64,000 nt of DNA from Bacillus sp. 103mf (GTDB taxonomy: Bacteria; Bacillota; Bacilli; Bacillales; Bacillaceae_G), in assembly GCF_900116295.1 (NCBI RefSeq), contig NZ_FPAF01000005.1:1-64000 (forward strand). Reading direction: 5' to 3'. How positions within the stretch are numbered: the first letter of the stretch is position 1; each line of letters opens with the position of its first letter. Made by a program: the position numbers and the translations under genes. Below are positions 14,288 to 31,291 of the stretch, piece by piece. The notes below the pieces were generated by a model that did no database searches, was not told the origin of the DNA, and was given only the letters and a program-made list of their open reading frames with translations.

Positions 14288-14541
14288 TAATAAATTTTCA
14301 TAGAAAATCTTGGATGAAGATAGTAATTATTTTCAGAAGCAATAGCGAGCTAGGGACGGTGAAAGCCTAGTGCGGAGAAAATAATGAGGCGCACTTCGGA
14401 GATGCTGCTTGAACGGTGTAGTAGAGTAAGCCGGGGCTCCCTAACCTCGTTATAAACGGGAAAGTGGTTCGTTATGAACAACAAGGGTGGTACCACGGGT
14501 GTAAACTCGTCTCTTTTTTAGAAAAGAGGCGAGTTTTTTTA
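14288..14541 (+). ncRNA. T-box riboswitch (Arg, specifier CGC)
   Basis: The leader contains the T-box sequence AAGGGTGGTACCACGGG (14483-14499), which forms the antiterminator with the NCCA end of uncharged tRNA, and a competing terminator at 14505-14540 (ACTCG-CTC stem then TTTTTTT). In stem I the putative specifier codon is CGC at 14390-14392, placed as in other T-boxes before an A. CGC is an arginine codon, which agrees with the downstream argS. Uncharged tRNA-Arg should allow read-through into argS. Confidence 0.9.
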
Positions 14542-21802: not shown

Positions 21803-22076
21803 TAACAAAAGTATACAAATCTGATGACGAGAACAAGTAAAATATATCACTGTTCCCCAGAGAGCCGGTGCTGTGCTGAAAACCGGTGTTCGGTATATGT
21901 TTGAAAATCATCTCCGAGGAGTCGAGCTGAACATAGTAAGTTCGAACGGTTGTCTACCGTTACAAGGAACGCGTATGATTGTACGTTGCTGAGTGCTATT
22001 GATGAGCCATTGATCAATAGAAGTAGGGTGGTAGCGCGGGTAAACCCGTCCCTAATGATAGGGACGGGTTTTTTGT
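21803..22076 (+). ncRNA. T-box riboswitch (Ile, specifier ATC)
   Basis: The T-box sequence AGGGTGGTAGCGCGGG lies at 22025-22040 and the terminator at 22044-22074 (ACCCGTCCCTA/TAGGGACGGGT then TTTTTT). In the stem I specifier loop the sequence GAAAATCATCTCC puts ATC, an isoleucine codon, at 21907-21909. It controls ileS by sensing uncharged tRNA-Ile. Confidence 0.93.
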
Positions 22077-29670: not shown

Positions 29671-29908
29671 TAAATATAAAAAGCGATGAGCAGGAAAAGT
29701 ACATCGTGAACTGATCTACAGAGAGCAATCGGTAGCTGAGAAGATTGCGGTGCAGCGCGATGGAAAGACACCTGTGAGTGTTATTTTGAACGTAAACAAC
29801 TAGTAAAAGTAAACGGAACCTACCGTTATCAGGCGAAAAGTGGTCAAGATGACAATTTGGGTGGTACCGCGGTGAAATCCGTCCCTTATATAGGGGCGGA
29901 TTTTTGTA
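29671..29908 (+). ncRNA. T-box riboswitch (Asp, specifier GAC)
   Basis: The T-box sequence TTGGGTGGTACCGCGG is at 29857-29872 and the terminator at 29877-29906 (AATCCGTCCC/GGGGCGGATT then TTTTG). In stem I, GGAAAGACACC puts GAC, an aspartate codon, at 29767-29769, in the same GAAA-NNN-A setting as the ile leader upstream. It matches the downstream aspartyl-tRNA synthetase. Confidence 0.9.
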
Positions 29909-29931
29909 TTCTTTGAAAGGGGTGAGCGGCC

Positions 29932-30030
29932 GTGGATGATGATGACAACGACAATAATAAATATACAATCATACAATTAATAGTAGGAGGCGGAATGTAT
30001 GCGTCAACAGATAAAGCGGTCGCTTATTAG
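29932..30030 (+). CDS. Possible Asp/Asn-rich leader peptide upstream of aspS
   Basis: A 32-codon ORF starting with GTG, with GAAAGGGGTGAG about 7 bases upstream, lies after the T-box terminator. Its first nine codons read (M)DDDDNDNN, five Asp and three Asn. It runs through the AGGAGG of aspS (29985-29990) and overlaps the first ten aspS codons in another frame. Ribosome stalling at the Asp/Asn codons could affect access to the aspS start. Coding is not proven; the composition and ribosome binding site are the only evidence. Confidence 0.4.
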   Translation: MDDDDNDNNKYTIIQLIVGGGMYASTDKAVAY

Positions 30031-31291
30031 CGAATGTACACCGCATGAAACAGTTGTGTTACAAGGATGGGTAAAGAAAATTCGTCATCTAGGGAATATT
30101 AGCTTTTTATTACTTCGTGATCGAACAGGAGTCATGCAATGTGTACTTGAAAAAGAATGGGCTGGATATAAAGTAGAAGTAGAAAGTGTTGTGCAAATTA
30201 CAGGAAAAGTAATTGAGACAGAGAAAACGAAACTTGGAGTAGAGTTATTAGTTGAAGAAGTTACGCTTATAAATAGTGCAGAGCCAATTCCATTTGAAGT
30301 AAATAAAAAGAAACTGCAGGTCGGTTTAGATCAAATGTTACATTCACGAACGTTATCACTTCGGCATGAACAAGTCCAAGCGATTTTTACAATTAAATCA
30401 ATGTTTGCACATGCCTTTAGTGAATATTTACTACAACATGATTTTACAAGAATTTTCACACCGAAAATTGTTTCACAAGGAGCGGAAGGCGGAGCAAACG
30501 TATTTCAGTTTCAATATTTTGAAAAAGAAGCATATTTAGCACAATCACCGCAGTTTTATAAGCAAATGATGGTTGCGGGCGGATTAGAACGTGTTTTTGA
30601 AGTGGCACCAGTGTACCGCGCTGAACATCACAATTCATCTCGTCATTTAAACGAATACATTTCCTTAGACGTCGAATTTGCATTTATTGAAGACTTTTAT
30701 GAAGTAATGAAGCTTGAAACGGATGTACTTCGGTATATGTTTGAAAAAGTACAGCAATACTGTACAAAGGAGTTACAGTTGCTGCAAATTGAAATTCCGG
30801 TCATTACAGACATTCCAAAATTAACGGTGACAGAAGCGCAAACCATTTTACAAAAAGAGTATCGAAAAGAATCTCCGATAGGCGATTTAGATTCAGAAGG
30901 AGAAAAATTGCTTGGTAAGTATGTAAAAGAAACATACAATAGCGATTTTGTCTTTATCACTCATTATCCGAAAGAAACACGTCCGATGTATACAATGCCA
31001 AATCAAGAGAATCCTTCTGTCACAGACTCTTTTGATTTATTGTATAGGGGATTAGAAATTACATCAGGTGCGCAGCGTATTCATAACTACGGTATGCTAG
31101 TTCGCTCCTTTGAAGAAAAGGGATTAAATGTAGAAAACTTTCAATCGTATATCGATACATTCCGATATGGATGTCCGCCGCACGGTGGGTTTGCGATTGG
31201 ATTAGAACGGCTTGTATATAAATTTTTAAACTTATCGAACGTTCGTGAAGCAAGCGCATTTCCGAGAGACTGTACGCGGTTAGTGCCGTAA
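29999..31291 (+). CDS. aspS: Aspartate--tRNA ligase, archaeal type (likely non-discriminating)
   Basis: A 430-residue class IIb synthetase: an N-terminal OB anticodon-binding domain (1-100), motif 2 in FEVAPVYRAEHHNSSRHLNEY near 200, and motif 3 in GGFAIGLERLVYKF near 400. Bacterial AspRS is about 590 residues with a GAD insertion; the short form lacking it is the archaeal/eukaryal type, often non-discriminating, making Asp-tRNA-Asp and Asp-tRNA-Asn, the latter amidated by GatCAB. The ATG follows AGGAGGCGG. It is controlled by an Asp T-box. Specificity for one or both tRNAs is inferred. AsnRS is the nearest alternative family. Confidence 0.85.
   Translation: MRQQIKRSLISECTPHETVVLQGWVKKIRHLGNISFLLLRDRTGVMQCVLEKEWAGYKVEVESVVQITGKVIETEKTKLGVELLVEEVTLINSAEPIPFEVNKKKLQVGLDQMLHSRTLSLRHEQVQAIFTIKSMFAHAFSEYLLQHDFTRIFTPKIVSQGAEGGANVFQFQYFEKEAYLAQSPQFYKQMMVAGGLERVFEVAPVYRAEHHNSSRHLNEYISLDVEFAFIEDFYEVMKLETDVLRYMFEKVQQYCTKELQLLQIEIPVITDIPKLTVTEAQTILQKEYRKESPIGDLDSEGEKLLGKYVKETYNSDFVFITHYPKETRPMYTMPNQENPSVTDSFDLLYRGLEITSGAQRIHNYGMLVRSFEEKGLNVENFQSYIDTFRYGCPPHGGFAIGLERLVYKFLNLSNVREASAFPRDCTRLVP

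Follow-up and report, generated by a model that had tools for sequence, protein, structure and literature searches.

In the DNA that we analyzed (64,000 nucleotides of Bacillus sp. 103mf, referred to as the window), a 32-codon open reading frame that begins with a run of Asp and Asn codons lies between a tRNA-Asp-type T-box and aspS2, the gene of an archaeal-type aspartyl-tRNA synthetase (AspRS2). We put the probability at about 70% that this ORF is genuine and translated into a leader peptide, and that it serves aspS2, after the T-box, as a second, translational sensor of tRNA charging. Since the leader opens with the Asp/Asn codon run, synthesis of the enzyme would probably be preceded by a check, made by the ribosomes, of how much of both charged tRNAs is available. 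Comparison of related loci strongly supports the conclusion that the leader has been selected to encode Asp and Asn between the Asp T-box and aspS2. The coordinates of the different elements are summarized in Table 1.

Table 1. Sequence elements of the aspS2 locus in the window
Feature	Position	Strand	Basis
T-box leader, Rfam RF00230, tRNA-Asp type	29677..29889	+	141.7 bits (gathering score 93)
Specifier codon GAC (Asp)	29767..29769	+	pattern GAA-N-GAC-ACC
Intrinsic terminator of the T-box, ATCCGTCCC..GGGGCGGAT-TTTTT	29877..29906	+	by eye from the sequence
Shine-Dalgarno sequence GAAAGGGGTGA of the leader ORF	29915..29925	+	sequence
Leader ORF, 32 codons, GTG start, stop inside aspS2	29932..30030	+	sequence; kept in 29 distinct loci
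Asp/Asn codon block DDDDNDNN, leader codons 2-9	29935..29958	+	translation and counts
AGGAGG Shine-Dalgarno sequence of aspS2, within the leader ORF	29985..29990	+	sequence
aspS2, archaeal-type aspartyl-tRNA synthetase, 430 aa	29999..31291	+	NCBIfam profiles; PDB match

The 32 codons of the leader translate into VDDDDNDNNKYTIIQLIVGGGMYASTDKAVAY. In the window, the terminator of the T-box sits between the T-box and the leader ORF, and the ORF spans the AGGAGG of aspS2 and enters this gene by ten codons in a different frame. A sequence-only reading of the same DNA had given positions for the leader Shine-Dalgarno (SD) sequence, the GTG, the ORF, the AGGAGG and the overlap with aspS2, and all of these agree with the sequence. 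Its proposal of an Asp/Asn-codon leader between an Asp T-box and aspS is likewise borne out by the RF00230 match, the GAC specifier and the translation. At GTG 29932, Asp or Asn occupies 8/8 of codons 2-9. When all 6,681 ATG, GTG and TTG triplets on both strands were inspected, this GTG was the only one with at least 5 Asp/Asn in codons 2-9, and the next best had 4. Similarly, no second run of at least 6 Asp/Asn codons was found in any of the window's six frames. The Asp/Asn block at GTG 29932 is not due to chance.

For the T-boxes, specifier codons were read by the pattern GAA-N-XXX-ACC, and the rule GAA-N-specifier is known from B. subtilis glyQS. An RF00230 T-box was present in all 29 distinct leader loci (window included). 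The pattern gave a GAC specifier in 23 of 24 loci, and in the 24th (L013) GAC was read by eye. Two further RF00230 elements of the window (14302-14517 and 21815-22056) lie upstream of argS and ileS, which were assigned by profile matches (TIGR00456 and TIGR00392), and no Asp/Asn-type leader ORF was found at either of them. The top-scoring models for ileS were MupA and MupB, both under their cut-offs. Outside the Bacilli set, the specifier of the aspS2 T-box set L040, L045 and L063 apart from L022 and L052, with AAC (Asn) in some of these loci and GAC (Asp) in others; these readings come from the simple pattern, and many of the 19 loci gave no clear reading. Also outside this set, L017 (1869-2000) and L029 (1852-2000) carry 3' of the T-box an extra antiterminator-like GGTACCGCGG and a terminator-like hairpin, as judged by eye, which is perhaps a tandem arrangement.

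The aspS2 product matched NF003483 with 605.4 bits and TIGR00458 with 441.4 bits (cut-off 368.4), in both cases above the cut-off, and both models are named 'aspartate--tRNA(Asn) ligase'. Its closest solved chain was 1n9w/3kfu (E 1e-115 for 1n9w), which is named 'non-discriminating and archaeal-type' and presumably originates from Thermus. These matches confirmed the archaeal-type assignment made in the sequence-only reading. As discrimination positions of AspRS enzymes, we assumed residue 26 of aspS2 (window 30074-30076) and the KTKLG motif. At these two determinants, we found Lys/Lys in the window and His/Pro in the Paenibacillus loci and in L007. The AspRS2 of the window is predicted to be non-discriminating and to charge tRNA-Asn.

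When we compared distinct aspS2 loci of Bacillaceae and Paenibacillaceae that carry a T-box, the D/N leader was present in 29/29 (window included); these loci are mutually related and do not represent 29 independent tests. The closest aspS2 relative among the matches listed (best 80 of 587 confirmed stretches) was a Lederbergia gene with 77%. Since the best match reached only this value and none of those listed came from the B. cereus group, our comparison set consists of species more distant than that group. Loss of the D/N codons, of the frame or of the GTG ribosome site in close relatives had been named beforehand as evidence against the leader; in these more distant relatives (29 distinct loci) all three are kept. 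Among the best 80 of 587 stretches, T-box and leader were found in 16/16 loci that belong by title to Bacillaceae and Paenibacillaceae (L001-L016), and the leader in 0/64 of the remaining aspS2 loci, which are mostly clostridial (at least 5 D/N). The sole match at this threshold among the 64 loci (L047) is really the start of aspS2 itself. At a threshold of at least 4 D/N, the 64 loci yielded seven rows in six loci, of which two were again aspS2's own start and five were without such a D/N leader. A T-box preceded aspS2 in 19 of the 20 loci scanned among these 64 leaderless ones (best 80 of 587); the exception was L051, labelled Lactobacillales. The idea of the leader as a general T-box feature was rejected, since it is absent at the argS and ileS T-boxes and at the 64 other aspS2 loci (best 80 of 587).

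The leader travels with aspS2. We searched genome samples that were picked without regard to the leader and accepted aspS2 at E 1e-100 or better. In the order of Bacillus sp. 165 (G001), 5 of 397 genomes contained aspS2, with the leader in 5/5. For the family of Paenibacillus mendelii (G402), the corresponding numbers were 9 of 295 and 7/9. One of the two leaderless loci (L153) is cut off, its contig starting 6 bases ahead of aspS2, and the other (L160) is a divergent aspS2 without T-box and leader. The genera of Lederbergia citri (aspS2 in 6 of 16 genomes) and Cytobacillus praedii (6 of 36) each showed the leader in 6/6 cases, and a third genus had aspS2 in 5 of 19 genomes, every one already in our set. 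A plasmid search gave no match, and a viral collection contained 5 aspS2 relatives, none of them with the leader. Duplicates were dropped (L152, L155, L156, L161, L162, L164, L167, L169, L170, L173-L177; L081-L086, L102, L139, L141, L142, L144-L149), and the counts likewise exclude L153 at its contig end, L160, which lacks both T-box and leader, and two decayed copies (L140 and L143). The leader pattern GGTGAN{3,9}RTGGAYGAYGRYRAYRAY, which overlooks variants such as L005 and L138, had 6 matches in 5 chosen genomes and 5 in the 397 genomes, and the reversed control had 0 and 2. Eight of the matches were aspS2 leaders, one was a decayed aspS2 copy (L143) and two were located within longer acidic frames (L150, L151), and the occurrence of the leader before other genes was rejected on these grounds. 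L140 (G388, genus of Lederbergia citri) and L143 are second leader copies beside aspS2 remnants. In L140, the RF00230 match is kept and the gene is shortened; in L143, a stop interrupts the aspS2 frame and RF00230 does not reach its gathering score. The gene itself is sparse and scattered among the sampled Bacilli (5/397 and 9/295 genomes at E 1e-100), a pattern suggestive of transfer or loss.

Next to its distribution, we analyzed what is conserved in the leader. Over codons 2-14 of the 29 loci, 189 of 377 residues were Asp, 79 Asn and 5 Glu, and the codons used were GAT (123), GAC (66), AAC (50) and AAT (29). Since Glu accounts for 5/377 residues and Asn for 79/377, it is Asp/Asn identity that is kept and not acidity. 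The usual form of the leader is M-D-D-(D/G)-D-D-D-(D/N)-(D/N)-N; at codons 2, 3 and 5-9, Asp occurs most often (24 loci tabulated), and the sensing block comprises 6-15 codons (29 loci, L163 excepted). Across 17 aligned loci, no variation occurs in the GGTGA of the leader SD, in the TG of the start codon or in the GA with which codon 2 begins. In 24 loci, the leader SD matches the complement of the 16S 3'-end exactly over 5 to 12 bases, with 6 bases in the window. We then compared codons 2-9 in 28 near pairs, which are not independent and which, like the geometry counts given below, cover 24 of the 29 loci. Here, 77 codons differed: Asp or Asn was kept with a synonymous codon in 38, Asp and Asn were exchanged in 20, Gly was kept with a synonymous codon in 3 and the other 16 were of different kinds, so that 58/77 retain Asp or Asn, and third positions take 54 of the 89 base differences. 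In L165 (Lederbergia genus), a DDN block has grown to DDNDDNDDNDDNDN in 9-base units with the frame intact. The synonymous and Asp-Asn changes, the third-position bias and the in-frame growth indicate that selection acts on a coding sequence to keep Asp and Asn, and not on acidity or RNA structure. RNAalifold returned 0 consensus pairs for 17 of the 29 loci, and a noncoding structure in the leader was rejected for this reason. The same result and the position of the leader behind the terminator led us to reject a transcription attenuator of the his/trp type.

In 28/29 loci, the leader frame extends across the start of aspS2; in the exception (L159) it ends at a TAG that touches the aspS2 ribosome site. 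The leader shares the phase of aspS2 in 4 of the 29 loci (L005, L006, L168, L165); its offset is 1 in 14 loci and 2 in the other 11, and in 24 of the 25 out-of-frame loci its stop lies 20-191 nt beyond the aspS2 start. From codon 15 to the aspS2 start, the leader frame is open in 28/29 loci and the other two frames are open in 7/29 and 18/29; because control frame 2 is open that often, the open leader frame alone is weak evidence. To locate ribosomes on the leader, we assumed that the front edge lies 12 nt beyond the first A-site nucleotide and that the 30S footprint runs from -20. With these assumed values, 19-56 nt stay free in 24/24 loci when the ribosome sits on the first D/N codon. On the last D/N codon, 5-23 nt remain free in 15/23 loci (11 nt in the window) and the footprints overlap by 1-4 nt in 8/23; L163, which has no valid block call, was left out of this count. 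In the folds, the aspS2 SD was partly paired in 12 Paenibacillaceae loci (unpaired 0.15-0.44) and mostly open in four Lederbergia loci (0.55-0.95). Masking the leader start in 24 loci changed how exposed the SD was, with no uniform direction.

As the simplest reading of these sequences, the leader would be a translational attenuator working by ribosome occupancy, in which flow represses and Asp/Asn stalling derepresses. Uncharged tRNA-Asp, recognized at the GAC specifier, would let RNA polymerase pass the T-box terminator, and the resulting mRNA would present a strong ribosome site for the leader. When Asp-tRNA-Asp and Asn-tRNA-Asn are ample, ribosomes would cross the block as well as the ribosome site and start of aspS2 and would suppress initiation there. 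If either charged tRNA is scarce, a ribosome would stall on the Asp/Asn block and further loading would be blocked; its front edge would come to rest near the aspS2 initiation footprint or before reaching it, and aspS2 would be translated. The Asn codons would report on a product that the GAC T-box should not read. The leader as such, with its position, conservation and open frame, is shown by the sequences; translation of the leader, stalling, occlusion and the sign of the effect are what we infer from them. Whether both layers form a two-tRNA circuit, in which the T-box reads only tRNA-Asp, the leader reads tRNA-Asp and tRNA-Asn and the enzyme is raised when either product falls, appears to us an evenly balanced question.

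That stalling frees the aspS2 ribosome site and flow covers it had already been suggested from the window alone. As an inferred mechanism, this fits the geometry of most loci, but the four in-frame loci do not fit in a simple way and are the main difficulty for a model in which flow represses. In these loci, smooth translation of the leader would yield an extended AspRS2 and not a block. Perhaps only the T-box is left in them, the translational layer having been lost; alternatively, the sign of the model may be wrong.

The in-frame loci and the overlapping ORFs would suit positive translational coupling, in which translating the leader would expose the ribosome site of aspS2 or supply it with ribosomes, and stalling would reduce aspS2. 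The partly paired SD in the Paenibacillaceae folds points in the same direction. However, in 24/25 out-of-frame loci the leader stop lies past the aspS2 start and not at it, masking the leader start had no consistent effect on SD exposure in 24 folds, and the SD is mostly open in the four Lederbergia loci. Moreover, an Asp/Asn block would then cut the enzyme when it is needed, and we consider such coupling unlikely. The nascent Asp run might also destabilize or pause ribosomes (intrinsic ribosome destabilization as for MgtL, with an ABC-F protein such as EttA as modulator) and report Mg2+ or the state of translation instead of charging. According to PMC11282234, E. coli ribosomes pause or fall off when acidic residues stand among the first 30 of the chain, and Asp prevails in the early leader codons (24 loci). 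Yet Asp to Asn exchange weakened the effect in that paper, equally acidic Glu is nearly missing from the leader whereas neutral Asn is frequent (5 and 79 of 377), and the leader accompanies aspS2 and an Asp T-box. In our view, these data make an acidity sensor quite unlikely.

It is still less probable that there is no peptide gene and that a purine-rich SD-like tract stabilizes or loads the mRNA, with the GAY repeats as neutral spacer. In its favor are the strong SD and the stabilization of Bacillus mRNAs by bound or stalled ribosomes. Codon-level conservation, third-position change, frame-keeping expansion, the kept start codon and the near absence of Glu argue against it. Hardly credible is an AspRS2 that truly starts at the leader start and carries an acidic N-terminal extension: the leader is in frame in 4/29 loci, but out of frame in 25/29, in both other frames. 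As the window is one of the latter, an extension is refuted there unless frameshifting occurs. Our preferred reading thus remains a translated Asp/Asn leader that senses tRNA charging downstream of the T-box, and it can be compared with several known systems.

The leader rtpLP of the B. subtilis at operon has three Trp codons and a stop close before the SD. In this operon, a T-box is reported to act together with stalling that depends on tRNA and governs translation (Chen and Yanofsky 2003, 2004, cited in PMC11255114 and PMC4027176). The sequence-only reading had not seen such a combination described. This claim of novelty fails, since the anti-TRAP operon already joins a Trp T-box to a leader in which stalling depends on tRNA, and T-box plus translational stalling is thus known. 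The aspS2 locus resembles the at operon (Trp T-box and rtpLP before rtpA, anti-TRAP) in that a T-box senses uncharged tRNA at transcription and in that the leader ORF follows the terminator and is rich in the cognate codon of the T-box (here GAC specifier, GAT/GAC in codons 2-14). In contrast to the at operon, the controlled gene encodes the synthetase itself, two tRNAs are addressed by Asp and Asn codons, the sensing codons number 6-15 and the frame overruns the target start in 28/29 loci. A stop before the SD, as in rtpLP, is absent in the window, and only L159 of the 29 loci stops at the SD; the aspS2 leader is therefore not a member of the at-operon family. The synthetase target, the two tRNAs in one leader and the frame over the target start are apparently new. 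Among the titles listed for open-licence PMC papers, our literature search found none that names an Asp/Asn leader with a T-box and no report that a T-box plus translational stalling controls a synthetase gene or senses two tRNAs.

Leader peptides with cognate codons are also known from other Firmicutes genes: those with His codons precede hisS paralogs and his operons in Bacilli, the B. cereus group among them (PMC2965389, PMC9413887). They are described as transcription attenuators with terminator hairpins that replace T-boxes, whereas the Asp/Asn leader follows a T-box terminator and no conserved hairpin was found (17 loci). If our reading is true, a synthetase gene would check both tRNAs that its enzyme may charge, and the leader could flag which AspRS2 enzymes truly supply Asn-tRNA. 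To our knowledge, tandem tRNA sensing is known from one operon, and it would then be a recurrent design kept across two Bacilli families. The two-codon T-box of C. acetobutylicum reportedly binds two tRNAs (Saad 2013). The likeness lies in T-box control of the tRNA-dependent asparagine pathway and in the sensing of two tRNAs. There, one RNA reads both tRNAs, whereas here the RNA would read one and the codons both. The Bacilli would then have solved with codons what the clostridium reportedly solves with a two-codon T-box.
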